This document shows, piece after piece, positions 8,590-27,189 of a stretch of DNA of 64,000 nt. This stretch comes from Ancylobacter moscoviensis (lineage in GTDB: Bacteria; Pseudomonadota; Alphaproteobacteria; Rhizobiales; Xanthobacteraceae). The position numbers were made by a program, and so were the translations under genes. The notes under the pieces were generated by a model. That model searched no databases. It was not told where the DNA came from and worked only from the letters and a program-made list of their open reading frames with translations. The stretch covers positions 248,001 through 312,000 of the forward strand of contig NZ_VMBP01000003.1 in the NCBI RefSeq assembly GCF_007559435.1, read 5' to 3'. Each line of letters begins with the position of its first letter. Position 1 is the first letter of the stretch.

Positions 8590-8650
8590 GCGCGGCCATC
8601 GCGAGCAGCCACGTCAAGGTCCTCTCCACCTCCCGCGACACATCGACCAA

Positions 8651-8672
8651 ATTGTTGACAGTTGGCAACAAT
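8651..8672. promoter_or_regulatory. Inverted repeat ATTGTTG-N8-CAACAAT, predicted GntR-regulon operator
   Basis: Perfect 7-bp arms flank an 8-bp spacer, 38 bp before the hydrolase start. The site contains TGTTGACAGTT (8653-8663), shared with sites near 14.6, 14.8 and 23.2 kb. It is a probable operator; the binding protein is inferred to be an FCD GntR regulator of the island. Confidence 0.6.
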
Positions 8673-8710
8673 AGAGTAGACAGAAATCGGAAACAGGAGA
8701 GGAAACGCCC

Positions 8711-9640
8711 ATGGCCATCGCAGAAGCCGTGCCCGAGCTCGTTCCGTCCACCCGGCTGATGGAGGGCTTCGCCCGTCACCGCATCAAGACGCGCGGCGCC
8801 GAGATCAACGTCGCCACCGCCGGCGAAGGACCGCCGCTCCTGCTGATCCACGGCAACCCGCTGACGCTGGTGAGCTGGCACAAGGTCGCCCCCTCGCTCG
8901 CTCGCGACTTCTCCGTCGTCGCCATCGACATGCGCGGCTATGGCGACAGCTCGAAGCCCTATGGCGGCGAGGATCATTCCGGCTATTCCTTCCGGGCCAT
9001 CGGCGAGGATGCCTTCGACGTCATGGACGCACTGGGTCACAAGACATTCGCGGTGGCAGGCCATGACCGAGGCGCGCGCGTCGGGTTCCGCATGTGCCTC
9101 GACCAGCCCCAGCGCATCACCCGCTACGCGGCACTCGACATCGTGCCGACCCACCACGTGCTGAACAACATCACGCTCGGGTGGGCGCGCGAGAGCTACC
9201 ACTGGTTCTTCATGGCGCAGAAAGCCCCCTTCCCGGAGAAACTGCTGGGCGCCGATCTCGATTATTACATGCGCTACAAGCTCAACAAGAAGGGCGTCGG
9301 CCTCGACATCTTCACGCCGGAGGCGATGGAGGAATATATACGCTGCGCCACCCCTGAGCAGATCCACGCCGTCTGCGAGGATTATCGCGCCACCATCACC
9401 GTCGATCTCGACATGGACACGGCGGACTACGGCAAGCGACGCATCGCCTGCCCCACATTGGTGATCTGGGGCGACAACAGCCATTGCGGCCGCCATTTCA
9501 AGCCGGTCGAGGCGTGGTCGGAATGGGCCGACGATCTGGTTGGCTTCTCCGTACCGACCGGCCACTATCCGGCGGAGCATCGGCCGGATCTCATCTATGC
9601 CGCCTTCTATCGCTTCTTCCGCGGCGAGCCGGTGGCATGA
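8711..9640 (+). CDS. Alpha/beta hydrolase, haloacetate (fluoroacetate) dehalogenase-like
   Basis: A 309-residue alpha/beta hydrolase closely patterned on fluoroacetate dehalogenases, which hydrolyse 2-haloacids to 2-hydroxyacids through an aspartyl ester. The oxyanion motif is IHGNPLTLVSWH. The nucleophile elbow GHDRGARVGF gives Asp119, Arg120 and Arg123, the carboxylate-binding arginines of the family. YHWFFMAQ (His164-Trp165) and CEDYRA match halide-pocket residues, and the general-base His285 lies in TGHYPAEH. Real substrates could be other small 2-substituted acids or epoxides, since annotation in this family overreaches. An operator shared with the carboxylate-uptake genes lies in its promoter, and its stop overlaps the rhodanese start. 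Confidence 0.8.
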   Translation: MAIAEAVPELVPSTRLMEGFARHRIKTRGAEINVATAGEGPPLLLIHGNPLTLVSWHKVAPSLARDFSVVAIDMRGYGDSSKPYGGEDHSGYSFRAIGEDAFDVMDALGHKTFAVAGHDRGARVGFRMCLDQPQRITRYAALDIVPTHHVLNNITLGWARESYHWFFMAQKAPFPEKLLGADLDYYMRYKLNKKGVGLDIFTPEAMEEYIRCATPEQIHAVCEDYRATITVDLDMDTADYGKRRIACPTLVIWGDNSHCGRHFKPVEAWSEWADDLVGFSVPTGHYPAEHRPDLIYAAFYRFFRGEPVA

Positions 9641-11223
9641 CCTTCACCCAGGTGACGGCGGAGACGGCGAAGAGCCGTCTCCATGCCGGAGACGAGGTGG
9701 CCCTCCTCGATGTTCGCGAGGCGGCCGCCTTCGGTGACGGGCATGCACTCTTCGCGATCCCTTGCCCTTATAGCCGGCTGGAACTGTCGGCAATTTCGCT
9801 GGTTCCACGCCGGAATTGTCCGATTCTTCTGATCGACGACGATGACGGCACGGCGGAGAAGGCCGCCCGGCGCCTCGCCGCCTGCGGCTATGTCGATCTC
9901 GCGGTCATTACGGGTGGCATGCCGGCCTGGGCAGCGGCCGGGTTCGGCGTCTTCGCGGGCGTCAACGTGCCCAGCAAAACGCTCGGGGAACTGCTCGAAC
10001 ACGATCACCACCCGAGGATGATCCCCGCCGCGACGCTTGCCCTCTGGCAGCGCGAGGGCAAGCCGCACGCCTTTTTCGACGCACGGCCGCCCGGCGAGTT
10101 CGCCAAGATGCGCATCGCCGGGGCTCGCTGCGTGCCCAATGGCGAGCTGGCGCATCGCCTCGCCGCAACGGTTCCGGATGAAGGGACGCCCATCGTCATC
10201 ACCTGCGCCGGCCGGACGCGCGGCATCGTGGGCGCACTTGGCCTGCGCGCGCTCGGCGTTCGCAACCCCGTCTATGCTCTCGAGAACGGAACGCAGGGCT
10301 GGGCGCTCGCGGGTCTGCCGCTGGAGCGCGGCGCAGAGCCCAGCCCGATGCCCGAACTGGATGACGAGGCAGCGGCCATCAGCCGCCGGCGTGCCGACCG
10401 CCTCATCGCCGCCGCCCAGTTGCCTCGCGCCACGGTCGTTCAAGCCCAGACATGGCTCACCGAGAAAGGTCGGACGACGTTCCTGTTCGACCTGCGCAGC
10501 CCAACCGAATGCTCGGCCCGGCCCGTGCCGGGCGCCGTTCCCGTGCTCACGGGGCAGCTCGTGCAGGCGACCGACCAATATGTCGGCGTCCGCCATGCGC
10601 GGTTGATCCTGATGGACGACACCGGGCTCCGGGCCGGGCTCGCCGGGCTTTTCCTGCGCGCACTCGGCTACGAGGTGCACGTCCTTACGCTCAGCGATCA
10701 AAACGATCCGCCGGCCCTGTCGGTCCCCCCTCCCGGCTTGAAGCCGCCGGCAGAGCTGGTCGCGCTTTCCCCCTCGGCCGCGGCCAAGCGCGCCGCGGGC
10801 GGCGTACCGGTGCTCGATCTGCGGTCTTCCGCCGAATGGGAGGAGCGGCGCCTCGCCGGCGCGCACTGGACCCTGCGCGGCCGGACCATCGAACTACCGA
10901 CCGGCACCGAGCGGGTACTGCTCCATGGCGATGCCGGCGCCGCCGCCGCGATGGCTGTCGACCTTGCGGAACACGGCATCGCCTGTGACTGGCTCGCCGC
11001 CGACCTCGATGCCTGCGCCACGGCCGGCTGGGCGATCGACGGGAAACGCCGGCCAATGAGCCGGGGCGAAGCGCTGGACCGCATCTGGTTCGTGCACGAT
11101 CGCCATGACGGCAACGAAGAAGCCTCGCGTCGCTACCTCGCCTGGGAGATGGGCCTCGTCGCCCAGCTCGACGAAGATGAGCGCGCTTCCTTCGGCTGGG
11201 TTCCCATCGACACACTCGCCTGA
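9637..11223 (+). CDS. Four-domain rhodanese-like protein
   Basis: A 528-residue protein built of four tandem rhodanese-type domains (about 1-120, 125-255, 275-380, 390-510). The ATG at 9637 overlaps the hydrolase stop as ATGA, so translation is probably coupled. Only domain 2 keeps the catalytic cysteine (Cys190 in VITCAGRTRG). The matching loops of domains 1, 3 and 4 read LLIDDDDGT, LILMDDTG and LLHGDAG. It could be a sulfurtransferase with one active and three inactive scaffolding domains. The physiological sulfur donor and acceptor are unknown. Pairing with a dehalogenase-like hydrolase is unusual and suggests a joint task in the island's pathway, or simple co-regulation. Confidence 0.82.
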   Translation: MTFTQVTAETAKSRLHAGDEVALLDVREAAAFGDGHALFAIPCPYSRLELSAISLVPRRNCPILLIDDDDGTAEKAARRLAACGYVDLAVITGGMPAWAAAGFGVFAGVNVPSKTLGELLEHDHHPRMIPAATLALWQREGKPHAFFDARPPGEFAKMRIAGARCVPNGELAHRLAATVPDEGTPIVITCAGRTRGIVGALGLRALGVRNPVYALENGTQGWALAGLPLERGAEPSPMPELDDEAAAISRRRADRLIAAAQLPRATVVQAQTWLTEKGRTTFLFDLRSPTECSARPVPGAVPVLTGQLVQATDQYVGVRHARLILMDDTGLRAGLAGLFLRALGYEVHVLTLSDQNDPPALSVPPPGLKPPAELVALSPSAAAKRAAGGVPVLDLRSSAEWEERRLAGAHWTLRGRTIELPTGTERVLLHGDAGAAAAMAVDLAEHGIACDWLAADLDACATAGWAIDGKRRPMSRGEALDRIWFVHDRHDGNEEASRRYLAWEMGLVAQLDEDERASFGWVPIDTLA

Positions 11224-11245
11224 CGCCCAAGCATTCCCAAAGTCG

Positions 11246-11284
11246 AAAGCCCCTCCATCGCCGGTGGAGGGGCTTTGTTTTCTT
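11246..11284 (+). terminator. Intrinsic terminator after the rhodanese gene
   Basis: AAAGCCCCTCCA pairs perfectly with TGGAGGGGCTTT across a 7-base loop and is followed by GTTTTCTT. It ends the hydrolase-rhodanese operon. Confidence 0.9.
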
Positions 11285-11300
11285 GTGATCCACCGCTCAA

Positions 11301-11329
11301 GAAAACGGGGCGGGTTCGCACCCGCCCCG
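11301..11329 (-). terminator. Intrinsic terminator after tctA
   Basis: On the minus strand CGGGGCGGGT, a 4-base loop and its exact complement are followed by TTTTCTT. It terminates the tctCBA operon, back to back with the terminator of the convergent rhodanese operon. Confidence 0.88.
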
Positions 11330-11358
11330 CTGGGGGAGCAATCGGGAGACGGGCAGCT

Positions 11359-12933
11359 TCAGCCCTTGCTGGCCGTGGTGTGAGCCCCGCGAGCCGCGTC
11401 CTCCTGCTGAAGGCGCAGCATGGCCGCCTCCTCCTCGGCCTCGGCCTTGTTCTGCTTGCGCTTGCCCCAGGCGGTCATCGCCAGCGAGGCGAACATCACC
11501 GCGAAGATGGCGAGCGCGCCGGGACGCTCAAGGATGTAAAGCGGGTTGCCGCCGCTGAGCTGGTAGGAACGCAGGAACTCCGTTTCCAGCATGCGCCCGA
11601 GCAGGATGCCGACCACCACCGCCGCGACCGGGTACTGGTAGCGGGCGAGCGCGTAGCCGAGCAGGGCGAAGACGAAGAGCGTTATCGGCCCGGCCGTCTC
11701 GCCGGTCACGGCGTAGGTGCCGAGGGTAGCGATGACGAGGATGGCCGGCAGCACGTAGCGGGTGCGGACCCGGACGATGTTCGAGGCGACGTAGATGAAG
11801 CCGATGCCCACCGCCAGCAGCACGATCGCCTGGACGATGTTGTTGAGGATGATGGCATAAACCATCGGCTTCTGCGTCTCGATGAAGCTCGGGCCCGGCA
11901 CGATGTTGTGCATCATGAACGCCGCGATCAGGATCGCGGTCGCGCCGCCGCCGGGAATGCCGAGCGCCAGCATGGTCGCCATGGACCCGCCCTCGGCGCT
12001 GGCGACGGCGGACTCGGCCGCCACCACGCCCTTGGGGTTGCCCTTGCCGAAGGTCGCGCTGTCCTTGGCGGTGCGCTTGGTCTCCGCATAGGCGATCAGG
12101 TTGCCGATGGACGAGCCGACGCCGGGCACGGCGCCGATGACGATGCCTATGATCGAGCCACGCAGCAGCACGCCCGGAAACTTCAGCGTGCCCCAGCAGC
12201 CCTTGAGGATGCGGCGCACACTGACTTCGCGGGCCCCCTCGGCCTCGATGATGTAGTCACGGCCAGCAAGGCTCAGGAGCTGGCCCGCCGCCAGCAGGCC
12301 GATCATCGCGGGAATGGGCGCGATGCCGTCGAGCAGCACCGGAATGCCCATCGTGCCTCGGGTGAAGCCGGCGGTGTTCATGCCCACAGTGCCGAGCAGG
12401 ATGCCGAAGGCGGCGGCGAGCAGGCCGCGGCTGATGTAGGTCGAGCCGAGAGAGCCGAGCAGCAGCATGCCCCAGATCGCCACCGCGAACATCTCCACCG
12501 GTCCGATGCGCAGCACGATGTCGGCGAGCGGCTCCACCACGAGCAGCAGCAGGAGATAGCCGCCAATGCCGCAGATGGTGGAAGCGAACAGCGCGTAGCC
12601 CAGCGCCTCATTGTGTTCGCCCTTCTTCGACATGGCATAGCCGTCGAAGGTCGTGGCGAAGGAGGATGGCGATCCTGGTATGTTCATCAGGATGGCCGGT
12701 ACCGACCCTCCGAAGCCGGCGCCGGTATAGACCGAGGTCAGGAAGACGATGGCCGAGAAGAAGTCCATGTAGAGCGACATCGGCAGCACGATCGCCATCG
12801 CCATGGTGATCGAGATGCCGGGAATGGCGCTGAAGACGAGGCCGACGATCAGCCCGGGGACGATCCATCCCCAGGAACCGACCGACGAGAACATGATGCC
12901 CAGCGCATCCTGAAAGGCGGAAAGATCGATCAT
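11359..12933 (-). CDS. tctA: Tripartite tricarboxylate transporter large membrane subunit TctA
   Basis: This 524-residue protein has about 11-12 hydrophobic helices and is the main permease of a tripartite tricarboxylate transporter, which imports citrate-like carboxylates using a periplasmic receptor and an ion gradient. Family features include SAIPGISITMAMAIVLPMSL, GIPVLLDGIAPIPAMIGL and ALGIPGGGATAILIAAFMM. Length is normal for TctA. It follows tctB by 9 bp and ends just before an intrinsic terminator. The ligand is set mainly by TctC and cannot be deduced from this subunit. Confidence 0.93.
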   Translation of the reverse strand: MIDLSAFQDALGIMFSSVGSWGWIVPGLIVGLVFSAIPGISITMAMAIVLPMSLYMDFFSAIVFLTSVYTGAGFGGSVPAILMNIPGSPSSFATTFDGYAMSKKGEHNEALGYALFASTICGIGGYLLLLLVVEPLADIVLRIGPVEMFAVAIWGMLLLGSLGSTYISRGLLAAAFGILLGTVGMNTAGFTRGTMGIPVLLDGIAPIPAMIGLLAAGQLLSLAGRDYIIEAEGAREVSVRRILKGCWGTLKFPGVLLRGSIIGIVIGAVPGVGSSIGNLIAYAETKRTAKDSATFGKGNPKGVVAAESAVASAEGGSMATMLALGIPGGGATAILIAAFMMHNIVPGPSFIETQKPMVYAIILNNIVQAIVLLAVGIGFIYVASNIVRVRTRYVLPAILVIATLGTYAVTGETAGPITLFVFALLGYALARYQYPVAAVVVGILLGRMLETEFLRSYQLSGGNPLYILERPGALAIFAVMFASLAMTAWGKRKQNKAEAEEEAAMLRLQQEDAARGAHTTASKG

Positions 12934-12942
12934 GTTCGCGCC

Positions 12943-13443
12943 TCACAGGATGGTGGTGAACATGGGAAAGGGGATCAGCGCGCGGAAGCCGTAGATCGCG
13001 ACCACGGTGACGACGAGCGAGAAGATCAGCAGGTGAAGCGGCCGGCGCTCGCCGCAAATCGCCATGGCGGCGGCGGTGAACAGGAACAACGCGATGTCGA
13101 AGCCGATGACATCGAGGAGCACCACCATCAGGCCCAGCGAGATACCGAGCGCCGCCATGCGGATCATATCGGAACGTTCGGAGGGCAGGGTCGGCGACAG
13201 CGGGTCCTGCTCGGCCGGCGCCTTCGCCATCTCCCGCGCATCCACCTTGCGGAAGCACTGCGGAAGGATGAAGAGGTACATGGCCAGCGCGAATATCGCG
13301 ACAGGCTGGACCAGAAGAATATTGTTGATGCTGAGCGAAACGCTGCGGGCGTCGAGCAGATACCAGAAGATGGCAACCGCGATCAGCGTGATGAGTGTCA
13401 GATGGCCGTAATCGATGGCGTAGGTGTGCCGACCGATGCGCAT
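12943..13443 (-). CDS. tctB: Tripartite tricarboxylate transporter small membrane subunit TctB
   Basis: The 166-residue small permease subunit has four hydrophobic helices (LTLITLIAVAIFWYLL, QPVAIFALAMYLFI and two more) and a polar central loop, the usual TctB layout. The ATG at 13443 is preferred because GGAG lies 6 bp before it. The ATG two codons earlier touches the ribosome site, and longer in-frame extensions are not membrane-like. It lies between tctC and tctA, in the classical order. Confidence 0.88.
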   Translation of the reverse strand: MRIGRHTYAIDYGHLTLITLIAVAIFWYLLDARSVSLSINNILLVQPVAIFALAMYLFILPQCFRKVDAREMAKAPAEQDPLSPTLPSERSDMIRMAALGISLGLMVVLLDVIGFDIALFLFTAAAMAICGERRPLHLLIFSLVVTVVAIYGFRALIPFPMFTTIL

Positions 13444-13520
13444 CGTCATCTCCGTTAGCCAGAGGAAGGAGAGCGAAGACGGACGGAGAACGGGCGCCGT
13501 CCGCCTTCCATTGATGCGGG

Positions 13521-14516
13521 TTACTTCAGAAGGTCGACGTACTTGGCCATCTTGGCGGCGTTGTCGAGATAGGCCTTGTCCGACGCTTCGGGGCCGTACC
13601 AAGTCGTTGCCAGTTCCTGCAGCTTGAGCGTCTCGATGGCCTTCGGGTTCTTGCTCGCCCGCTCAACCGCACCGACAAGGAACTTGTAGATCTCGGGCTG
13701 CTCGTTCCTGAGCTTGGTCGTCACCGCCCAGCCGCGCTGCGAGCCTTCGACGAAGTCGGTCTTCAGGCCGCTCTCGGAGACCAGCGGAGCCTCGGGGAAC
13801 CAATCGACCTTTTCGCCCGCAAAGATGGCGAGGGGACGGATCTTCGACTTGAGCGGCAGGAAGCCCTCGCCGCCGACGAAGCCGACATCGACCTGCGCGC
13901 CGGCCGTGGCGTTGCGGGCGGGACCGCCGCCATCATAGGTCACGATGCGCAGCTTGGTCGGATCGATCTCGGCCGCCTGGAAAGCGAGGATCATGTTGGC
14001 GTAGTCGGCGGAAGCCGGCTGCACGCCGATGCTCAGGCTGCCCGGATCGGCCTTCAGCTTCTCGATCACCTCCGCGAAAGTCTTGATCTCGCTGCCCGCC
14101 GAAGTGGCCGCCAGCGTGTAGTCGCGCGACGGCAGGTTCAGCATCGCGAAATCTTCAACCTTGTAGGGTGCGTTCTGCAGCAGGACGGTGAGCGGAATAT
14201 AGGGGGCCGCGGACGTGCACAGGATGCTGTAGCCGTCTGCCGGCTGGTTCAGCGCATAGGAATTGCCGAGCTGGGTGCCGGCGCCCGGCTTGTTCACGAT
14301 TACCATCGGCTGGCCGATCTCCTTTTCGAGATACGGCATGAAAGCGCGCGAGAGCCGGTCGTTGTAGCCTCCCGTCGCGAACGGCACGATCACGTTGATC
14401 GGGCGCGAGGGATAGTTCGCGGCGCGCACGATCGACGGCATGGCGACGAGACCGCCGGCGACCGCCAGCCCGCCCGCCGTGATTTTGAATGCATCTCTGC
14501 GTGTGAAATCTGTCAT
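13521..14516 (-). CDS. tctC: TctC/Bug-type solute receptor with Tat signal
   Basis: A 331-residue periplasmic binding protein of the Bug/TctC family. The N-terminus MTDFTRRDAFKITAGG carries a twin-arginine motif, so it is probably exported folded. Family signatures are YPSRPINVIVPFATGGYNDRLSRA and VIVNKPGAGTQLGNSYAL near the ligand loops. Bug receptors bind carboxylates through two water molecules plus specific contacts, so the ligand cannot be named. It is the first gene of tctCBA. A predicted operator lies about 103 bp upstream of the start at 14619-14626, consistent with induction by the substrate through one of the island's GntR proteins. Confidence 0.9.
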   Translation of the reverse strand: MTDFTRRDAFKITAGGLAVAGGLVAMPSIVRAANYPSRPINVIVPFATGGYNDRLSRAFMPYLEKEIGQPMVIVNKPGAGTQLGNSYALNQPADGYSILCTSAAPYIPLTVLLQNAPYKVEDFAMLNLPSRDYTLAATSAGSEIKTFAEVIEKLKADPGSLSIGVQPASADYANMILAFQAAEIDPTKLRIVTYDGGGPARNATAGAQVDVGFVGGEGFLPLKSKIRPLAIFAGEKVDWFPEAPLVSESGLKTDFVEGSQRGWAVTTKLRNEQPEIYKFLVGAVERASKNPKAIETLKLQELATTWYGPEASDKAYLDNAAKMAKYVDLLK

Positions 14517-14618
14517 GTTTTCCTCCCGCCGTTCCATCTGAATCGGTCGTCTCGTGGCAATGGCTGCGCGACCGTGTGGGTTCAGGCTGGGACTCAGACT
14601 GTCTCCGCATCCGTCAAC

Positions 14619-14626
14619 TGTCAACA
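14619..14626 (-). promoter_or_regulatory. TGTTGACA operator motif upstream of tctC
   Basis: On the minus strand the sequence reads CTGTTGACAGTTGACGG. It shares TGTTGACAGTT with three other promoters of the island and lies 103 bp upstream of tctC. The GT-N2-AC core fits FCD-type GntR regulators. Confidence 0.55.
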
Positions 14627-14763
14627 GATTTGCAGACCGCTTCGCTGGAATACCAGAGCGTCATGGCGGCAAGTCAGCGCGGCCACTGCTTTTCCTGTCA
14701 ATGAAATTAGCGACCGAACCGCATGGACGTGCTGCTCGCCACGTGAATGCGGCACCTTTGTTC

Positions 14764-14771
14764 TGTTGACA
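14764..14771 (+). promoter_or_regulatory. TGTTGACA operator motif upstream of the abrB operon
   Basis: The sequence CTGTTGACAGTTTTC matches the copy before the tartrate dehydrogenase gene over 15 bases. It lies about 170 bp before the abrB-family start. Confidence 0.55.
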
Positions 14772-14943
14772 GTTTTCACTCAAGCTGGCTCAATCATTCC
14801 AGGCTCCGCCGGCGGACATTGCCGCTTCGAGATGGAAGCCATGGGAGATTCGCCATGTCCATCGGCTCGCCCGACCGCTCACGACTGCCACCGGCATCAG
14901 CCGTGAAGGCTTTTGATCGGCGCGCCGGAGCGGCGGACAGCTG

Positions 14944-16050
14944 ATGGCCGAAATCCCAGAGGATTCGAACCAGACCGGCGCGCTGGGCTCCCCTGTGTTC
15001 CGCTGGTGGCTGCGGTTGATTGCGACCTATTCGATCGCCGCCGTCGCCGGCTATCTGGCCTCGCTCATTCATATTCCCCTGCCCTGGATGCTCGGACCGC
15101 TCTTCGTCTGCGGCACGCTCACCCTGCTGGGCGTCCCGTTGCAGGCAGGCCCTCATCTGCGCGAGATCGGACAGGTCATCGTGGGCCTTGCCATCGGCAT
15201 GCGCTTCACGCCTCATCTTCTGCTCGTCTCGCTGGAGCTGCTCCCGGCGATGCTGGCGGCGACCCTCTACATCATCGCCGCAACCTTCCTCGGCGCCCTG
15301 CTGATGCGTCCGCTTGCGCGGATCGATCCGACCACGGCCTTCTTCGCCACCGCCGCCGGCGGCATGGCCGACATGGCGGTGGTGGCCGCGGCGCGGGGCG
15401 GCGACACGAATGCCGTCTCCATCGTCCACGCCCTGCGGGTGACGACCGTGGTCAGCGTCGTGCCCTTCATGGTGTTCGCCTTCGGGGAACAGGGCACGGT
15501 CACCGCCGTCGATCCCGCCACCTCGCATGACGTGATGCTCCTGCTGCTGGCCCTTGCCGTCGCCTATCTCGGCGCCCAGCTTCTGCGTCCCACTGTGATC
15601 CCCAATCCGTGGCTGCTCGGCTCGCTATTGCCGAGTGCGGCGCTCGGCGCCTCCGGACTGCTCAACGTGGCGGTGCCCGGCCTACTCATCGTGGCGGCGC
15701 AGATCATGATCGGCGTCTGGCTCAGCATGCGGTTCCGGCGTGATCTGTTCATGCGCCTGCCCCGCGTGGCTGCCGCCGGCCTGCTGGTCGCGCTGCTGCT
15801 GATCCTCGCCGCCGCCATCGGCGCGGAGGTCCTCTCCTTTGCGACCGGCCTGCCCCTGACGACGAGCTTCCTCGCCCTGGCGCCGGCCGCCATCACCGAG
15901 ATGGTGCTCACCGCCAAGGCCATGCACGCCGACGCCGAGCTCGTGACCGCCTTTCACATCGTGCGCATCGCGGTGATCGCCTCGACCATCCTGGTGGTGT
16001 TTCGCGTCTACCGCCTTGTCCTGAGGAGCCATTATGAATCTGGGGTTTGA
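14944..16050 (+). CDS. AbrB-family membrane protein, putative carboxylate transporter
   Basis: A 368-residue integral membrane protein with about ten helices and the two-fold AbrB repeat. The motifs IHIPLPWMLGPLFVCG and REIGQVIVGLAIGMRFTP, and in the second half NVAVPGLLIVAAQIMIGVWL, mark PF05145, the family once misnamed ammonia monooxygenase. Members often sit next to TctABC genes and are thought to be transporters, without firm biochemistry. It opens the plus-strand operon of the island, divergent from tctC, and its end overlaps the SDR gene by 17 bp. Export of a product or an alternative uptake route are both possible. Confidence 0.8.
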   Translation: MAEIPEDSNQTGALGSPVFRWWLRLIATYSIAAVAGYLASLIHIPLPWMLGPLFVCGTLTLLGVPLQAGPHLREIGQVIVGLAIGMRFTPHLLLVSLELLPAMLAATLYIIAATFLGALLMRPLARIDPTTAFFATAAGGMADMAVVAAARGGDTNAVSIVHALRVTTVVSVVPFMVFAFGEQGTVTAVDPATSHDVMLLLLALAVAYLGAQLLRPTVIPNPWLLGSLLPSAALGASGLLNVAVPGLLIVAAQIMIGVWLSMRFRRDLFMRLPRVAAAGLLVALLLILAAAIGAEVLSFATGLPLTTSFLALAPAAITEMVLTAKAMHADAELVTAFHIVRIAVIASTILVVFRVYRLVLRSHYESGV

Positions 16051-16828
16051 CGGCCGTCGCGCCGTCATCGTGGGCGGCAGCTACGGTATCGGCGAGGCCA
16101 CCGCCGACATTCTGCTGCGTGAAGGCGCGGAGGTGATCATCGCTTCACGCAGCCGCGACAATCTCGAGGCCGCCGCCGCACGCCTCGTCCAGGCGAGCGG
16201 TCGTGCCCCGCACATCTTCGTCGCGGATGTCGTGAAGGACGCACAATCGGCCACCGCGCTGGCGGAGGAGGCCGGACGACGCTGGGGCGCGCTGGATATC
16301 CTCGTCAGCGCCGTCGGCGGCAGCGTGCGCGCCGATTTCGCCGAGCTGACCGACGAGGACTGGCTGGCCAGCTACCAGTTCAACGTCCTCTCGACCGTGC
16401 GCACCATCCGCGCCGGCGTGCCGCTGCTCGCGAAGGGCAAGGCGCCGGCCGTCGTCACGCTGGGCGCCGCCGCGGCCAAGATGCCCTACGCGCATCAGGT
16501 CATGACCAACGTCCACAAGGCCGGGCTGCTCGGCCTCGTGAAGACGCTGGCGCTGGAACTCGGCGAACAGGGCATTCGGATCAACAGTGTCGGGCCGGGC
16601 CGCACCAGGACCCCGCTCTGGATCAACCGCGCCACCCGCATCGCCGCCGAGCGCGGCGTCGCCATCGAGGACGTCTTCGAGGAATTCTCGCACGAAATCC
16701 CCCTCAAGCGCTTCGCCGAGCCAGCCGAGATCGCGGTGATGGTCGCGTGGCTCGCCAGCCCGCTCGCCAGCTACGTCACCGGCCAGGCCATCAATGTCGA
16801 CGGCGGCATCGCGCGCGGCCTCGTTTAA
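16034..16828 (+). CDS. SDR-family protein with altered catalytic residues
   Basis: A 264-residue short-chain dehydrogenase/reductase-type protein. The N-terminal Rossmann motif is VGGSYGIGEAT, the later segment is DILVSAVGG, and the C-terminus is YVTGQAINVDGG, all typical. The catalytic part is not: in the block MTNVHKAGLLGLVKTLALEL the lysine (Lys162) is present, but the position four before it, normally Tyr, is Thr158. The preceding Ser is also absent (VTLGAAAAKMPYAHQ). Tyr151 in the nearby PYAHQ could take over, or the protein may bind cofactor without classical oxidoreductase chemistry. It overlaps the abrB-family gene and is followed after 11 bp by an MmgE/PrpD gene, so all three are probably one operon. 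Confidence 0.78.
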   Translation: MNLGFDGRRAVIVGGSYGIGEATADILLREGAEVIIASRSRDNLEAAAARLVQASGRAPHIFVADVVKDAQSATALAEEAGRRWGALDILVSAVGGSVRADFAELTDEDWLASYQFNVLSTVRTIRAGVPLLAKGKAPAVVTLGAAAAKMPYAHQVMTNVHKAGLLGLVKTLALELGEQGIRINSVGPGRTRTPLWINRATRIAAERGVAIEDVFEEFSHEIPLKRFAEPAEIAVMVAWLASPLASYVTGQAINVDGGIARGLV

Positions 16829-16839
16829 AGGAGAAGAAA

Positions 16840-18207
16840 ATGTCCGACAAAGACGTGACGAAGAAGCTCGCCGCCTGGATCGTGGGGTGCCGGCTCGACG
16901 ACATTCCCACCCCGGTACGCGAGGAGGGCGTGCGGACCTTCTTCAACTGGATGGGCTGCGCCGTGGGTGGTGCGCGCCACGAGACCGTCGACCGGGCACT
17001 CGCCGGCATCACCCCCTTCGCCGGCAAGCCGCAGGCGACGGTGATCGGCCGCGGCGAACGTCTCGACGTGCCGAACGCGGCGCTCGTCAACGGCATATCC
17101 TCGCATGTGCTCGACTATGACGACACGCATCTGAAGACCATCATCCACCCCGCCGGCCCGGTCGCTTCTGCCCTGCTCGCCGCGGCGGAATACCACCCCC
17201 TCTCCGGCCGCGACTTCCTAAACGCGCTGATCGTCGGCGTGGAGGTCGAGTGCCGGATCGGCAACAGCGTCTATCCCGACCATTACGACCGCGGCTGGCA
17301 CATCACCGGCACCACCGGCGTGTTCGGCGCCGCCGCCGCCGTCGGCCACATGCTGAAGCTCGACGAGCGGCAGATGACCTGGGCCCTCGGCATCGCCGCC
17401 ACGCAGGCCTCGGGCCTGCGCGAGATGTTCGGCACCATGTGCAAGAGCCTGCATCCCGGTGCGGCGGCACGGAACGGAGCGCTCGCCGCCTTCCTCGCCC
17501 AGGCCGGTTTCGACAGCTCGCTACAGTCGATCGAGGCGCCGCGCGGCTTCGCCAACGTGCTTTCGACCAAGCAGGACTACGAGGAGATCCTCGGCGGGCT
17601 TGGTGAACGCTGGGAAGCGGGGCTGAACTCCTACAAGCCCTTCGCCTGCGGCATCGTCATCCATCCGACCATCGATGGCTGCCAGCAGCTTCGCGAGGAA
17701 CTGGGCACCGATGTCGGGCGCATCGCGGCGGTGCGTCTGCGTACCAATCCGCTTGTGCTTGAGCTGACCGGCAAGCGTGAGCCGAAGACAGGGCTGGAGA
17801 CCAAGTTCAGCGTCTTCCACGCCGCTGCCTGCGCACTGCTGCGTGGCGACGGGTCGCCCACCGCCTTCACCGACGAGGCGGCCAACGCCCCGGAGCTGAT
17901 CGCCCTGCGCCGCAAGGTGGAGGCCACCTCCGATCCCTCGATCCACGAAGCCTCGGTCGTCATCGAGGTGGAGTTCGAGGACGGCCGGCGTATCGAGCGC
18001 GTGATCGAGCGCGCCATCGGCAGCCATGACCGGCCGCTGAGCAACGAACAGCTCGAGCGCAAGTTCGCCCACCAGTCCGCCCTCGTGGTCGGCACCGAGG
18101 TGACGGACCGGCTGATGGCCCTGTGCTGGCGCCTGCCGGAGCTGGCGGATGTGGGCGAGATCGCCCGCGCTTCCGTGCCCGCCGGCCTGCGCGACGCGGC
18201 GGAGTGA
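16840..18207 (+). CDS. MmgE/PrpD-family protein, first copy
   Basis: A 455-residue member of the MmgE/PrpD family, whose known activities include 2-methylcitrate dehydration, cis-aconitate decarboxylation and iminodisuccinate epimerisation, all on di- and tricarboxylates. ATG at 16840 follows AAAGGAG. The conserved substrate-pocket region is SSHVLDYDDTHLKTIIHPAG, followed by GVEVECRIGNSV, HITGTTGVFGAAAAVG and MCKSLHPGAAARNG. Length fits the family. The exact reaction is unknown. Among the family it looks like the broad dehydratase/racemase group. The dehydrogenase gene starts 4 bp after its stop. A second, diverged copy lies at 24.4 kb. Confidence 0.85.
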   Translation: MSDKDVTKKLAAWIVGCRLDDIPTPVREEGVRTFFNWMGCAVGGARHETVDRALAGITPFAGKPQATVIGRGERLDVPNAALVNGISSHVLDYDDTHLKTIIHPAGPVASALLAAAEYHPLSGRDFLNALIVGVEVECRIGNSVYPDHYDRGWHITGTTGVFGAAAAVGHMLKLDERQMTWALGIAATQASGLREMFGTMCKSLHPGAAARNGALAAFLAQAGFDSSLQSIEAPRGFANVLSTKQDYEEILGGLGERWEAGLNSYKPFACGIVIHPTIDGCQQLREELGTDVGRIAAVRLRTNPLVLELTGKREPKTGLETKFSVFHAAACALLRGDGSPTAFTDEAANAPELIALRRKVEATSDPSIHEASVVIEVEFEDGRRIERVIERAIGSHDRPLSNEQLERKFAHQSALVVGTEVTDRLMALCWRLPELADVGEIARASVPAGLRDAAE

Positions 18208-18211
18208 GGCC

Positions 18212-19309
18212 ATGACGACGCACACGCCTCTGCGCATCGGCGTTCTCGAAGGCGACGATATCGGGCATGAAATCGTGCCCGCCGCCCACCGCATCGCCGC
18301 CGCGGCCGCGCGCGCCTGCGGGCTTGCCGTGGACTGGCAGCCCATGCCCATCGGCCGCCGGGCGCTGGACGAGCATGGCCACACCATGCCGCCCGGCACG
18401 CTGGAGAAACTGGCCGAGCTGGACGGCTTCGTCCTCGGGCCCATCGGACATCAGGCCTATCCGAAGGTGCCGGAAGCCATCAATCCGCACCCGATCCTGC
18501 GCAAGAGCTTCGACCTCTTCGCCAATGTCCGTCCCACCCGGTCCTATCCCGGCCTCGGCTGCCTCTATGACGATATCGATCTCGTCATCGTGCGGGAGAA
18601 CAATGAGGGCTTCCAGCCCGACCGCAACGTGGTGGCAGGTTCCGGCGAATTCCGCCCGACGCACGACACCACCATCTCGGTCCGCGTCATCACCCGCGAG
18701 GGCAGCCGCAAGGTGGCGCTGGCGGCGCTGGAGATCGCCCGGGCCCGCCGCAAGCGGCTGACGGTCGTGCACAAGAACACGGTGTTCAAGCTCGGCTGCG
18801 GCATGTTCGTCGAGGAGTGCTACCGCGCCGGCAAGGACTTCCCCGATGTCATCATCGAGGAAGTCATCGTCGACACCTTCGCCATGAAGCTGGTGCGCGA
18901 GCCGCAGCGCTTCGACACCGTCGTGACCACCAACATGTTCGGCGACATCCTCACCGACGAAGCGGCCGGTCTCGTCGGCGGGCTCGGCATGGCGCCGGGC
19001 CTGTGCATCGGCCGTGGCGACATCGCCATGGCGCAGGCGACGCACGGCTCCGCGCCCGATATCGCCGGCAAGGGGCTGGCAAACCCCTACGCGATGATCG
19101 AATCCACCCGGATGCTGATCGAATGGCTCGGCCGCCGGCGGAACCTTCCCGCCGCCGGCCGCGCGAGCGCCCTGATGAAGGCCGGCATCGACGCCGCGCT
19201 GGCGAACCCCGCCACCCGCACCCCCGACATTCGCGGCACCGGCACCCAGATCGACATGGTCGACGCCATCCTCGGCTTTATGGAGAACCACGCTCATGCG
19301 GCGGCATAA
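18212..19309 (+). CDS. Isocitrate/isopropylmalate dehydrogenase-family protein lacking the usual Tyr
   Basis: A 365-residue beta-decarboxylating dehydrogenase-type protein. It has LEGDDIGHEIV at the N-terminus (usually GDGIG), the substrate arm RKSFDLFANVRPTRSY, Lys in VVHKNTVFKLG, metal ligands in TTNMFGDILTDEAAGLVGG and the dinucleotide loop HGSAPDIAGKGLANP. Odd point: in the motif RENxEGxY the usually catalytic Tyr is Gln135 (VRENNEGFQPDRN). The family oxidises 2-hydroxyacids with a 3-carboxylate (isopropylmalate, isocitrate, tartrate, D-malate), and here the proton-relay residue is changed. It lies between the MmgE/PrpD gene and a second dehydrogenase that it overlaps by 14 bp, so it may form a heteromeric enzyme with it. 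That is inference. Confidence 0.82.
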   Translation: MTTHTPLRIGVLEGDDIGHEIVPAAHRIAAAAARACGLAVDWQPMPIGRRALDEHGHTMPPGTLEKLAELDGFVLGPIGHQAYPKVPEAINPHPILRKSFDLFANVRPTRSYPGLGCLYDDIDLVIVRENNEGFQPDRNVVAGSGEFRPTHDTTISVRVITREGSRKVALAALEIARARRKRLTVVHKNTVFKLGCGMFVEECYRAGKDFPDVIIEEVIVDTFAMKLVREPQRFDTVVTTNMFGDILTDEAAGLVGGLGMAPGLCIGRGDIAMAQATHGSAPDIAGKGLANPYAMIESTRMLIEWLGRRRNLPAAGRASALMKAGIDAALANPATRTPDIRGTGTQIDMVDAILGFMENHAHAAA

Positions 19310-20402
19310 GATCGCTCTCATTCCCGGAGACGGCATCGGCTCCGACGTCATCCACGCAGGCCGGCAGGTGCTCGATGCGCTGGCGGCGGCCGATGGCGGC
19401 TTCGGCTTCGATTTCGAGAGCTTCGACTGGGGCTCGGATCGCTACCGACGTGTCGGCAAGATGATGCCCGACGACGGCGTCGATACGCTGCGCGGCTTCG
19501 ATGCCATCTATTTCGGCGCTGTCGGCGACCCGAAGATCCCAGACCACATCACGCTGTGGGAACTGCGCCTCGCCATCTGCCAGGGCCTCGACCAGTACGC
19601 CAATGTGCGCCCCTCCCGGCTGCTGCCCAACATCACCGGCCCGCTGCGCCCCGATCTCGGCCGCGACATTGACTGGGTGATCGTGCGCGAGAACAGCGAG
19701 GGCGAATATGCCGGCGCCGGCGGACGGGCACATCGCGGCCTGCCGATCGAGGTCGGCCTCGACGTCTCGGTCTTCACCCGCACCGGCGTCGAGCGCATCG
19801 CCCGCTTCGCCTGCGAACTCGCCATGTCCCGCCCCCGGCGCAAGCTCACCATCGTCACCAAGTCCAATGCCCAGCGCCACGGCATGGTGCTGTGGGACGA
19901 GGTGTGCCGCTCCGTGGTGAAGGACTTCCCCGCCCTCGACGTCGACTGGATGCTGGTCGACGCCATGACGATGCGGCTGGTGCTGCGCCCCGGCACGGTG
20001 GATACGGTGCTCGCCACCAACCTGCACGCGGACGTGCTCTCCGATCTCGCCTCGGCGCTGAGCGGCAGCCTCGGCATCGGCGCCACCGCCAATCTGGCGC
20101 CGGACCGCTCGGCCCCATCGATGTTCGAGCCCATCCACGGATCCGGCTTCGATCTGATCGGCAAGGGCATCGCCAATCCTATCGGCGCCCTCTGGAGCGC
20201 CGTGCTGATGCTGGAGCATCTGGGCGAGGCGAAAGCAGCCGGGCGGCTCATGGATGCCATCGAACGGGTAACGGCGGAAGGAACGACGCTGACACCCGAT
20301 CTCGGCGGCACGGCCCGCACGGACGAGGTGACGCGCGCCGTGATCGGCCTTATTGAACGACAGAATGACGCGACACCGGGAGCTTCCCGTCACGTCGCGT
20401 AG
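19296..20402 (+). CDS. Isopropylmalate/tartrate dehydrogenase-family protein, second copy
   Basis: A 368-residue NAD(P)-dependent beta-decarboxylating dehydrogenase. It keeps the classical residues: LIPGDGIGSDVI, Tyr in RENSEGEYAGAGG, Lys in VTKSNAQRHGM, metal ligands in ATNLHADVLSDLASALSGS and the cofactor loop HGSGFDLIGKGIANP. GKMMPDDGVDTLRGFDAIYFGAVG and DQYANVRPSRLLP resemble tartrate dehydrogenases more than leucine-pathway LeuB. Likely substrates are tartrate-, malate- or alkylmalate-like acids. It overlaps the preceding homologue by 14 bp and is followed by the first GntR gene, with a palindromic operator in the 42-bp gap. Confidence 0.83.
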   Translation: MRRHKIALIPGDGIGSDVIHAGRQVLDALAAADGGFGFDFESFDWGSDRYRRVGKMMPDDGVDTLRGFDAIYFGAVGDPKIPDHITLWELRLAICQGLDQYANVRPSRLLPNITGPLRPDLGRDIDWVIVRENSEGEYAGAGGRAHRGLPIEVGLDVSVFTRTGVERIARFACELAMSRPRRKLTIVTKSNAQRHGMVLWDEVCRSVVKDFPALDVDWMLVDAMTMRLVLRPGTVDTVLATNLHADVLSDLASALSGSLGIGATANLAPDRSAPSMFEPIHGSGFDLIGKGIANPIGALWSAVLMLEHLGEAKAAGRLMDAIERVTAEGTTLTPDLGGTARTDEVTRAVIGLIERQNDATPGASRHVA

Positions 20403-20426
20403 ATACTACAAGCCTTCCAGCCTGAG

Positions 20427-20438
20427 ATTGTTTACAAT
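20427..20438. promoter_or_regulatory. Palindrome ATTGT-TT-ACAAT before the first GntR gene
   Basis: Perfect 5-bp arms lie around TT, ending 6 bp before the ATG of the GntR gene. The GT-N2-AC core is typical of FCD GntR operators. Position suggests autoregulation by roadblock or ribosome-site masking. Confidence 0.6.
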
Positions 20439-20444
20439 TAACGA

Positions 20445-21146
20445 ATGAGCATGGAAAGCGATTCCGGTCATTTGAACGATCTCTCCGTTGTGAAGAGCGT
20501 TTCCCTCACGAGCGCGCTCGAGAAGGAGCTCGAGCGCCTCATCCTGACGGGCGAGCTGGAGCCGGGCGAGCGGATCAACGAGATCCATCTCTCGAACCGC
20601 TTCGGCACCAGCCGCGGCCCGATCCGCGAGGCCACCCGCAGCCTGGAAGCCAAGGGCCTCGTCGAGGTCGTGCGCAACCGGGGCGTCTTCGTGCGCCGGC
20701 TGTCGGTCGAGGACGCCATCGAGATCTACGACGTGCGCGCTGCGCTGTTCGGCCAGGCTGGGCGTTTGCTCGCCGAGCGGATGACCGACGAGTTGCTCGC
20801 CGAGCTTACGCGTCTTGTCGACGAGATGGACGTGGTCGCCGAGCGGGGCAGCTTCGACGAGTACTACCCCCTCAATCTCGCCTTCCACAATCTCATCGTC
20901 AGCTCGTGCGGCAATCGCACGCTGATGGCCGAGTACCACCGCTTCGTGAACAAGCTGCATCTGTTCCGGGCCCGCGCGCTGGTTCAGGGCGGCGGCCTCG
21001 CCGTGTCGAACCGCGAGCATCGCGCCATGCTGGAAGCGCTGGCCTCCGGCGACGGCGACCGGGCGCAGATGACGCATTGGCGGCATGTCGCGCTCGCCAA
21101 GCGCCGCCTCATCGCCGCCGTCGACGGCGCCTCGCGCATCGACTGA
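20445..21146 (+). CDS. GntR-family regulator with FCD domain, first copy
   Basis: A 233-residue regulator with an N-terminal winged helix (LEKELERLILTGELEPGERI, then SNRFGTSRGPIREATRSLEAKG) and an all-helical FCD ligand domain starting near VEDAIEIYDVRAALFG. The histidines in LAFHNLIV and NREHRAML are of the type that bind a metal and a carboxylate effector. FCD regulators usually repress catabolic genes for organic acids and release DNA when the acid binds. The gene is last in the plus-strand operon, preceded by its own palindrome, and is a paralogue of the divergent regulator at 22.2-22.9 kb. Confidence 0.9.
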   Translation: MSMESDSGHLNDLSVVKSVSLTSALEKELERLILTGELEPGERINEIHLSNRFGTSRGPIREATRSLEAKGLVEVVRNRGVFVRRLSVEDAIEIYDVRAALFGQAGRLLAERMTDELLAELTRLVDEMDVVAERGSFDEYYPLNLAFHNLIVSSCGNRTLMAEYHRFVNKLHLFRARALVQGGGLAVSNREHRAMLEALASGDGDRAQMTHWRHVALAKRRLIAAVDGASRID

Positions 21147-21166
21147 CCATTCCGCTGCCATCGCCC

Positions 21167-22192
21167 TCAGGCAGCGGCGCGCGCTTCGATCCTGCGCGCC
21201 GCCACGCGGGCGGCGAGGCGGACGGCGGACTGGAAGGCCCCGATATCAGCCACGCCCTTGCCCACGATATCGAAGGCCGTGCCGTGCGCCGGCGTGGTGA
21301 AGACGACTTCCAGCCCGGCGGTGATCGTCACGCCCTTGTTGAAGCCCTTGAGCTTTGTCGCGATCTGCCCCTGGTCGTGATACATCGCCAGCACGCTGTC
21401 ATAGGCGCCGGCGAAGGCCTTCAGATAGACGGTATCGGACGGGAACGGCCCGCTGCAGTCGATCCCCTCCTTCGCCATGGCCTCGACCGCCGGGCGGATG
21501 ATCTCGATCTCCTCGGTGCCGAACAGCCCCCCCTCCCCGCCATGCGGGTTGAGCGCCGCGACGGCGATGCGGGGGCTTTCGATGCCCGCCTTGCGCATCG
21601 TGTCGTCGGCGAGCCGCAGCGCGCCGCAGACAGACTCAAAGGTCACCTGATCGAGCGCCGTGCGCAGCGAGACATGCGAGGTGACGCGGGTCATCCACTG
21701 GCCTTCCAGCACGTTCATCTCGCTGAAAGGGCCCTTGTGGTCGAGCAGGTGGGCGAACATCTTGTGCTCGTCCGGGAAACGCCAGCCGCCGTTGAACATC
21801 GCCTGCTTGTTGAGTGGGGCGAAGCACACGCCATCGACCTCGCCCGCCTTGGCGAAGTCGATGGCGCGGGCAAGCGTGTCGCCCGTCAACCGACCTGAAT
21901 CCGGGTTTGCCACGCCCAGCTCGAACCCGCTCGGATCGATGTTGCCGAGGTCGACGAGCGGGATTTCGGGGGCGCTCCAGTCCACCGCCGCCGGGGAAGC
22001 GTAGCGCCGCACGTTCAGCGTGACGCCCGCATGACCGGCTCCCATCTCCAATACGCGGGCGTCGCCGACCACCACGAGCCGTACCACCTCGCGCATGCCG
22101 CCCTCGACCAGAAGGCGTGCCGTCTGCTCCGGACCGATGCCGGTGCAGTCGCCGGGAACGAGAGCGAGAACGGGGAGCGGATCGCGCGTCAT
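21167..22192 (-). CDS. PdxA-family hydroxyacid-phosphate dehydrogenase (PdxA2-like)
   Basis: A 341-residue member of the PdxA family, NAD- and metal-dependent dehydrogenases that oxidise a phosphorylated hydroxy acid and decarboxylate it. Metal-site motifs are VTSHVSLRTAL, AMYHDQGQIATK and PAHGTAFDIVGKG; NPHGGEGGLFG is also typical. The start LALVPGDCTGIGPEQTARLL matches the family. It sits directly after a GntR gene, away from vitamin B6 genes, and therefore resembles catabolic PdxA2-type enzymes acting on 4-phospho-threonate-like compounds. No DUF1537 kinase, the usual partner of PdxA2, is in the window, so the substrate may be an unphosphorylated acid or come from a distant kinase. Confidence 0.85.
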   Translation of the reverse strand: MTRDPLPVLALVPGDCTGIGPEQTARLLVEGGMREVVRLVVVGDARVLEMGAGHAGVTLNVRRYASPAAVDWSAPEIPLVDLGNIDPSGFELGVANPDSGRLTGDTLARAIDFAKAGEVDGVCFAPLNKQAMFNGGWRFPDEHKMFAHLLDHKGPFSEMNVLEGQWMTRVTSHVSLRTALDQVTFESVCGALRLADDTMRKAGIESPRIAVAALNPHGGEGGLFGTEEIEIIRPAVEAMAKEGIDCSGPFPSDTVYLKAFAGAYDSVLAMYHDQGQIATKLKGFNKGVTITAGLEVVFTTPAHGTAFDIVGKGVADIGAFQSAVRLAARVAARRIEARAAA

Positions 22193-22197
22193 GGCAC

Positions 22198-22938
22198 TTA
22201 CCTGTCTTTGAAACGGGAATTTCGTGGATCGAGCGGTCCGGGCCGCGCGTCGGTGGCCGTCTCGTCCTCCAGCGTGCGCAGGAAGCGCGCCTTGCCGGCG
22301 AGGATGTGCCGTTCGAGAAGGCGCGCGGCGGCCGTACCGTCGCTCTGGCTGAGAGCGTCGAGGATCGCCTTGTGCTCGTCGTTCGAGGTGCGCATGGAGC
22401 CCGGCAGCACGAGGCCCCGGCGGCGGAACAGGTGCAGTTCCGCCTCCAGCAACGGATAGAGCTCGATCAGCTTGGCGTTGTCGGAAGCGACGACCACCTG
22501 GCGGTGGAACTCGTTGTTGAGCGTGTAGAAGGCGGCGATATCCGGCACATCGATTGCCGCCTCCATCTGCCGGATGAGCTCTTCCAGTGCGCGCAGCTGG
22601 GTGGTCGGGATGATGGACGCCGCCAGCCGCCCCGCAGTGCCGAACAGGCCGGCGCGGATATCGTAGAGATCCAGCGCCTCCTTGGTGCTGACCTCGCGCA
22701 CGAAGAAGCCGCGATTGAGCTCGCTGCGCAACAGGCCGATCTGCTCCAGCGCCCGGCAGGCCTCGCGCACCGGCCCCCGGCTGATGCCGAGCTTGAGCGC
22801 CAGCGAGCTCTCATTGATGCGCGTCCCGCCGGTCAGCTCGCCAGCACCGATCATGCGCTCGATCTCGCGCTGGATCACCGGCACGAAGGACGCGGTGCGC
22901 GGAGTACGGGCGGGGTTGGCGGGCGAGCGTCGGAGCAT
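22198..22938 (-). CDS. GntR-family regulator with FCD domain, second copy
   Basis: A 246-residue FCD-type GntR regulator. The winged helix contains LALKLGISRGPVREACRALEQIG and the wing LNRGFFVREVS; the FCD part starts near KEALDLYDIRAGLFG, with histidines in NEFHRQVVV and NDEHKAIL. It forms an operon with the PdxA-family gene 5 bp downstream and is divergent from the tartrate dehydrogenase gene. TGTCAACA (the complement of TGTTGACA) lies 30 bp before its start, the same core as in four other promoters of the island, which makes it the best candidate for the regulon's master regulator. Its sequence parallels the first GntR protein, so cross-binding is plausible. Confidence 0.9.
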   Translation of the reverse strand: MLRRSPANPARTPRTASFVPVIQREIERMIGAGELTGGTRINESSLALKLGISRGPVREACRALEQIGLLRSELNRGFFVREVSTKEALDLYDIRAGLFGTAGRLAASIIPTTQLRALEELIRQMEAAIDVPDIAAFYTLNNEFHRQVVVASDNAKLIELYPLLEAELHLFRRRGLVLPGSMRTSNDEHKAILDALSQSDGTAAARLLERHILAGKARFLRTLEDETATDARPGPLDPRNSRFKDR

Positions 22939-22967
22939 GGCGACATTTCATCCGCGAAAAAGGATAT

Positions 22968-22975
22968 TGTCAACA
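22968..22975 (-). promoter_or_regulatory. TGTTGACA motif 30 bp before the second GntR gene
   Basis: The minus strand reads AGTGTTGACAATATCC. It shares the 8-base core TGTTGACA with the other island sites but not the following GTT. It is a likely autoregulatory operator. Confidence 0.55.
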
Positions 22976-23150
22976 CTAAGGGTCACAATCGGCAAAATCT
23001 CGAGCATTCTGTCGCCGATCTCATCTTCCGCTAGGGCACCCAAAAAGATCGCGTCGAGAGCCAGAAAATCCTTTCAAATAAACGTAAATATCCACATCTC
23101 AATCCATACACATACCTTCCCACGCCGCCATTCGGGAGCCACCTCTTCTA

Positions 23151-23168
23151 AAAACTGTTGACAGTTTT
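23151..23168. promoter_or_regulatory. Inverted repeat AAAACTG-TTGA-CAGTTTT before the tartrate dehydrogenase gene
   Basis: Perfect 7-bp arms lie around TTGA, 70 bp before the start codon. It is the most symmetrical copy of the island motif and contains TGTTGACAGTT. It is probably the main operator for the tartrate dehydrogenase-MmgE operon. Confidence 0.65.
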
Positions 23169-24324: not shown

Positions 24325-24362
24325 GCCACGCCACACGCTGAACGAACAACAGGAAACGCTCC

Positions 24363-25841: not shown

Positions 25842-25865
25842 GTCATGTCAGGACAATCCGTCCGT

Positions 25866-26012
25866 TCAGCGCGGCCGGCGCGCGCTTGCCGGGGCCGGCT
25901 GCGGCTTGGCCCTGGAACGGGCCAGATCGTCCATCAGCTCGTACCACATGGCGTTGAGCACGGCGAAGGCCGCCGCCAGCGGCAGGCCGAGAAGCCAGGC
26001 GAAATACCACAT
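25866..26012 (-). CDS. cydX: Cytochrome bd oxidase small subunit CydX
   Basis: This 48-residue frame reads MWYFAWLLGLPLAAAFAVLN and then a charged tail ending in RRPR. MWYFAWxLG is the hallmark of CydX/YbgT, the single-helix subunit that stabilises the haem groups of cytochrome bd oxidase. It lies 15 bp after cydB with a GAGGGGAGGAG ribosome site, in the expected last position of the operon. The tail is longer and more basic than in the 37-residue E. coli protein. It is short enough to be missed by length-filtered gene calling. Confidence 0.92.
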   Translation of the reverse strand: MWYFAWLLGLPLAAAFAVLNAMWYELMDDLARSRAKPQPAPASARRPR

Positions 26013-26027
26013 GTCGCTCTCCTCCCC

Positions 26028-27185: not shown

Positions 27186-27189
27186 GGTC

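Follow-up and report, generated by a model that had tools for sequence, protein, structure and literature searches.

Six promoter regions in one gene cluster of Ancylobacter moscoviensis (contig NZ_VMBP01000003.1, positions 248,001 to 312,000; this stretch of 64,000 nucleotides is the window) carry the same palindromic element, AAYTGT-N2-ACARTT, in most cases superimposed on a -35-like TTGACA hexamer. We regard the element as the putative operator of one or more GntR repressors of the FCD/FadR type which, by occupying the -35 boxes, would control the whole cluster, and we put the probability of this reading at about 0.8. One or two related GntR proteins encoded here, GntR1 and GntR2, would probably switch genes for organic-acid uptake and breakdown together. 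The sequences give good support to three elements of this reading, namely that the operator is shared, that the regulon is single and that the regulator is an FCD GntR protein: orthologous loci retain the sites, related GntR genes elsewhere are preceded by them, and in other families they go with much of the gene set.

The 11-mer is confined to one cluster in the genome

A preliminary description of the window had reported five copies of TGTTGACA, each in a promoter region and oriented towards a gene; coordinates and strands were confirmed, and every copy precedes a gene start towards which it is directed. The expected number in the window is 0.41, and none of 100 shuffles reached five. Four of the five copies were also correctly said to share an 11-mer, TGTTGACAGTT (starts at 8653, 14616 on the minus strand, 14764 and 23156). 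These four are the only TGTTGACAGTT copies in the whole 4.18 Mb genome, for which window composition predicts about 0.28; reversed TGTTGACAGTT, used as a control pattern, has 0 copies genome-wide. The shorter TGTTGACA occurs 14 times in the genome, five of them in the window; none of the nine copies outside it has the GTT extension, and seven of the nine are overlapped by an open frame of at least 150 codons (stop to stop). The window shuffles and the confinement of TGTTGACAGTT to the window rule out a chance origin of the motif, and the flanks, which differ among the six sites, rule out a dispersed repeat.

Other details of the description need correction. Its five promoters all stand, but the list was incomplete: a sixth related and conserved site, GATTGTTTACAATT, lies 16 bp ahead of the gntR1 start. 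Of the two perfect inverted repeats claimed, one holds over 14 bp (23153-23166, AACTGTTGACAGTT), alone of the five; at 14619 (minus) and 14764 the symmetry is complete for the inner 10 bp only. The hydrolase and tctC, given as 3 kb apart, have promoters separated by about 6 kb.

A probable operator merged with a -35-like box

Which part of the motif would a protein read? Site comparisons suggest that it is the palindrome, and that the TTGACA within it looks like a -35 hexamer. We read two layers here, the arms being the predicted target of a GntR protein and TTGACA that of RNA polymerase; a composite of this kind would account for the fixed orientation of the motif, and the palindrome over TTGACA suggests repression by covering the promoter. 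A composite of operator and -35 hexamer modifies the earlier view of the motif as a shared operator; the conservation of the sites and their recurrence with related GntR genes support the single regulon.

All six sites contain TTGT-N2-ACA(A/G), with the 2-nt spacing of FadR-type TKGT/ACMA boxes. Both GntR1 and GntR2 score above the Pfam cut-offs for GntR (N-terminal winged helix) and FCD (C-terminal), and the proposal that a GT-N2-AC core fits FCD GntR proteins agrees with boxes and spacing; by these features the predicted operator falls into the GT-N2-AC class known for GntR proteins of the FCD/FadR type. GntR1 and GntR2 are 39% identical and have SRGP[VI]REA in common.

The layers can be told apart in 106 promoter copies (the set excludes gene matches below 55% identity and missing genes, the latter mainly on the short contigs L064 and L065; a relative's site is the best match within a distance range, a procedure that favours matches). 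The core TGT-N2-ACA is complete in 105 of them; the arms match as complements in 72 copies at position 5 and in 68 at position 6, versus 10-28 at positions 7-12. Right-hand position 4 is G at structural promoters and mostly A at GntR promoters. At the five promoters other than that of gntR1, 84 of 88 copies have TG as their centre, creating a TTGACA that points at the gene, and the other 4, all among the 18 hydrolase copies, have CG; these four keep the palindromic arms, and TGT-N2-ACA is present at the place of operator 1 in 18/18. The gntR1 site, mostly at a distance of 16 bp from the start codon, keeps its arms in 18/18 around a centre of TT (10), CT (6) or CA (2). At abrB a -10-like hexamer follows 17 bp on in 17/17 copies (CTCTAT 10, CTCAAT 5, CTGTAT 2), and at tctC CAGTCT follows at the same distance in 14/17; a sigma70-type promoter would have its -10 hexamer 16-18 bp after TTGACA.

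Conservation in the genus

Orthologues of GntR1 (at least 89% identity) and GntR2 (at least 72%) are present in 17 of 30 Ancylobacter genomes; TGTTGACAGTT is found in the same 17 and in 0/13 of the others. The 30 genomes together hold 66 copies, 63 of them at this gene set, against 14 for the reversed 11-mer. Gene order is kept among the genus loci and all six sites recur at orthologous places; conservation in relatives, which the preliminary description had offered as a check, is present in 17/30 genomes. The closest named relatives belong to Ancylobacter and to other Xanthobacteraceae. At tctC, for example, whose product is 80-91% identical in 16 genus loci besides the window, TGTTGACA lies at -102 to -132 in 17/17, and the gntR2 promoter has it in 18/18 copies. 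A motif travelling with its locus is to be expected, so the weight lies on the non-orthologous promoters that share it.

Related GntR genes and other families

Beyond the genus, some TGTTGACAGTT hits are repeat-like, lying at most 110 bases from a contig end (3/3 in genome G032, 2/3 in G030, 2/8 in G037) or, for two further hits in G037, having a common flank; the bare 11-mer is therefore not used as evidence there. The TGT-N2-ACA palindrome lies within 300 bp upstream of 21 out of 28 additional related GntR genes, a set with many mutual orthologues, compared with a mean of 0.375 in 200 shuffles and 3/354 tiles (the preferred control; the open reading frame control, 33/238, contains main-locus promoters). 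Neighbours of these genes include MmgE-, PdxA- and TctA-like genes. Two GntR2-like paralogues, L016 and L017, have TGTTGACA before their own genes, and an outgroup GntR gene with an SRAP helix, L133, has two TGTCGACA sites upstream, so the operator type also occurs outside the SRGP clade.

Elsewhere in the order, outside the family, the palindrome is present in 12 of 24 listings, two of these hits belonging to a neighbouring promoter (tctC and ttc2 of G665). Genome G665 carries the two GntR genes together with most of the gene set. Four others, G701, G429, G516 and G574, hold a reshuffled part of it with a GntR1 orthologue (57-63%); a GntR2 orthologue was not found in these four, since P0001 finds as its top match in them GntR1 itself or, for G429, a paralogue at 39%. 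TGTTGACA stands in the tctC and mmgE2 promoters of G701, G429 and G574, facing the gene in each case; in G516 the site is a perfect GATTGTCGACAATC without TTGACA, and the hydrolase site of G665, AACTGTCGACAGTT, likewise keeps the arms without TTGACA. Of the stretches fetched, those of G665 and G516 alone include the hydrolase gene. GntR1 is, on this comparison of genomes, the more conserved partner of the site and the gene set, because both persist in part with it where a GntR2 orthologue was not found.

Alternative readings

If the site precedes both GntR genes, which product is the regulator? The preliminary description chose gntR2, which the data do not single out: gntR1 has its own conserved site and persists where its paralogue's orthologue was not found. 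An arrangement in which GntR2 alone regulates all the sites and GntR1 controls something else would fit the invariant TGTTGACA over the gntR2 promoter and the same motif before the L016 and L017 paralogues, yet it is unlikely, as it leaves aside the site before gntR1 in 18/18 copies and the four genomes in which the site and a large part of the gene set go with GntR1. That the protein activates these promoters, or has a dual effect, we consider quite improbable. Some FCD proteins do activate, such as CitO, which citrate induces to bind and activate (PMC4746285), but here the palindrome sits on the -35-like hexamer itself in five promoters, a position from which a dimer on the DNA should keep RNA polymerase away, and proteins of the same type, DgoR (PMC7674646) and Pseudomonas aeruginosa PrpR (PMC9765439), are repressors. 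Finally, TTGACA in five of six sites, pointing at the gene, could suggest a mere strong sigma70-type promoter signature with no shared regulator. This is hardly credible: the arms are kept without TTGACA at gntR1, in the CG-centred hydrolase copies and in G516 and G665, which rules out a plain -35 signature, and TGTTGACAGTT is absent from the rest of the genome.

Repression through a shared operator has several observations to contend with. The genus genomes are related, and their counts are not independent events. The bare TGTTGACAGTT is not specific, being present at least once in 130 of 391 family genomes, 113 of them among the 361 outside the genus and without close GntR1 or GntR2 orthologues, while orthologues of either protein (E 1e-70) occur in only 17/391. 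The palindrome is missing before 7 of the 28 related GntR genes and from 12 of the 24 listings outside the family (three of these 12 for want of upstream DNA, two of the three repeating genes listed elsewhere). Within the site, arm position 4 is complementary in just 41 of 106 copies; the -10 element is weak at gntR2, weaker at ttc2 than at abrB or tctC, and not clear at the hydrolase promoter.

Proposed mechanism

What the sequences show is a set of conserved sites, the TTGACA within them and their association with a GntR clade; binding, repression, a ligand and roles for both proteins we infer from these as follows. The palindrome lies exactly over TTGACA in five promoters and stands without it before gntR1. 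In the absence of ligand, a repressor dimer would cover the -35 box and keep the operons off: tctCBA for uptake; abrB-SDR-mmgE1-idh-ttc1, ttc2-mmgE2 and pdxA for catabolism; and hydrolase-rhodanese. A ligand bound to the FCD domain, probably a small di- or hydroxycarboxylate, would free the promoters. GntR1 is probably the older and main regulator; GntR2 would be a paralogue reading the same or nearly the same site, resulting in auto- and cross-regulation of both.

A more elaborate version is tentative, and we think it rather doubtful as a whole. Here, two duplicated FCD GntR repressors would have six operators in common, of which five are fused with the -35 box so that promoter and operator evolve as one; the hydrolase, controlled together with carboxylate uptake and oxidation, would mark a pathway not yet described, in which a halogenated or epoxidised dicarboxylate is led into tartrate- or malate-type chemistry; and the site would be kept while the operons reshuffle across six families of the order.

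The predicted regulon is ready-made for this catabolic cluster and links a specific uptake system with a fluoroacetate-dehalogenase-like enzyme. As the operator is also found upstream of many FCD GntR genes of the order that are related but uncharacterised, it offers a handle for regulon prediction. An operator merged with a -35 box, as the case shows, can look like a plain promoter element in raw sequence.

Comparison with known systems

Sites of the FadR subfamily are built from TKGT/ACMA boxes, some with a 2-nt spacing of GT and AC (PMC4494728); the boxes and spacing, the two features compared, are the same here. Another parallel is P. aeruginosa PrpR (PA0797), which has a predicted palindrome, ATTGTCGACAAT, before its own gene, binds the region and represses the 2-methylcitrate operon (PMC9765439). 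Both systems pair an FCD GntR protein with a GT-N2-AC palindrome before its own gene and a carboxylate operon with a PrpD-type enzyme, binding being predicted in ours. They differ in that ATTGTCGACAAT lacks TTGACA, which the TG centre creates here, and in that tartrate dehydrogenases, TctCBA, PdxA and a hydrolase take the place of prpB, prpC and prpD. In Corynebacterium glutamicum, two paralogous GntR repressors, GntR1 and GntR2, act on the same promoters of a gluconate regulon (PMC2230225); two paralogues are likewise present here and would share their sites, but that regulon serves gluconate in another phylum, and the identical gene names are coincidental. In the open-licence literature, this gene set or the genus, combined with GntR, yielded a single paper (PMC12542641).

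Genes and proteins of the cluster

Table 1. Predicted operators and genes of the cluster (window coordinates).
Feature	Position	Strand	Remarks
Operator 1, AATTGTTGACAGTT	8650..8663	+	hydrolase-rhodanese promoter; -35-like TTGACA 8655-8660
Alpha/beta hydrolase, fluoroacetate-dehalogenase-like	8711..9640	+	Pfam and alignments
Multi-domain rhodanese protein	9637..11223	+	Pfam, 3 stretches
tctA	11359..12933	-	
tctB	12943..13602	-	
tctC	13521..14516	-	ATG at 14516 preferred to longer TTG frame
Operator 2, ATCTGTTGACAGTT	14616..14629	-	tctC promoter; -35-like TTGACA 14619-14624; CAGTCT 17 bp on
Operator 3, TTCTGTTGACAGTT	14761..14774	+	abrB promoter; -35-like 14766-14771; -10-like CTCAAT 14789-14794
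Operon abrB - SDR - mmgE1 - Iso_dh - tartrate dehydrogenase 1 (ttc1)	14944..20402	+	
Operator 4, GATTGTTTACAATT	20426..20439	+	before gntR1; without TTGACA
gntR1, GntR with FCD domain	20445..21146	+	
pdxA-like dehydrogenase	21167..22192	-	
gntR2, GntR with FCD domain	22198..22938	-	
Operator 5, TAGTGTTGACAATA	22965..22978	-	gntR2-pdxA promoter; -35-like TTGACA 22968-22973
Operator 6, AACTGTTGACAGTT	23153..23166	+	perfect inverted repeat; ttc2 promoter; -35-like 23158-23163
Operon tartrate dehydrogenase 2 (ttc2) and mmgE2	23239..25790	+	

The best PDB match of GntR1 and of GntR2 is 7xp0, which we take to be P. aeruginosa PrpR/PmiR; both miss the NCBIfam model TIGR03338 phnR_burk (cut-off 271.5), at 230.3 and 209.7 bits, respectively. 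Both tartrate dehydrogenases pass TIGR02089 (cut-off 470.4), ttc1 with 508.1 and ttc2 with 553 bits. The MmgE/PrpD-fold proteins of the set fall far under the prpD equivalog cut-offs (56.1, 29.7 and 26.4 bits for MmgE1), and no match to prpB or prpC was found among the scanned regulon proteins; a 2-methylcitrate (prpB/prpC/prpD) operon was rejected on these results. In an alignment with fluoroacetate dehalogenases (3r3u), the hydrolase keeps HDRGAR, HW, CEDYRA and the Asp and His positions, presumably the functional positions of fluoroacetate dehalogenase, and is fluoroacetate-dehalogenase-like as judged by these residues; the epoxide hydrolases 4bat and 4b9a score about equally to fluoroacetate dehalogenases.

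Other sites and neighbouring frames

Two long open frames (7462-8589 and 25845-27293) flank the regulon; neither has a Pfam match, nor any match above 45% in the fetched relatives. A near-operator, AACTGTCGGCAATT, at 9782-9795 within the rhodanese gene may act as a second operator; the equivalent coding position reads GTGTTGACAATT in L061 and L063, but the near-operator is lost in many relatives. In three contigs (L054, L062 and L065) operator 1 separates the hydrolase operon from a divergently oriented third GntR gene, which has an MmgE-type gene with it, as seen in L065.

Several paralogous GntR genes (L118, L119, L122, L125, L126 and L128-L130) have AATTGTTGACACTT about 40-60 bp upstream, ending in C in L119. 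It has CTT in place of the GTT of this locus, possibly a specificity switch between parallel regulons in one cell. In another genus of the family (L167-L170, from G102 and G073), G102 holds several AACTGTTGACAGTT-type sites within 28 kb, together with MmgE-like genes and a distant GntR gene (33% to GntR1), and G073 has one such site 170 bp before a similar GntR gene; this looks like another regulon using the same operator.

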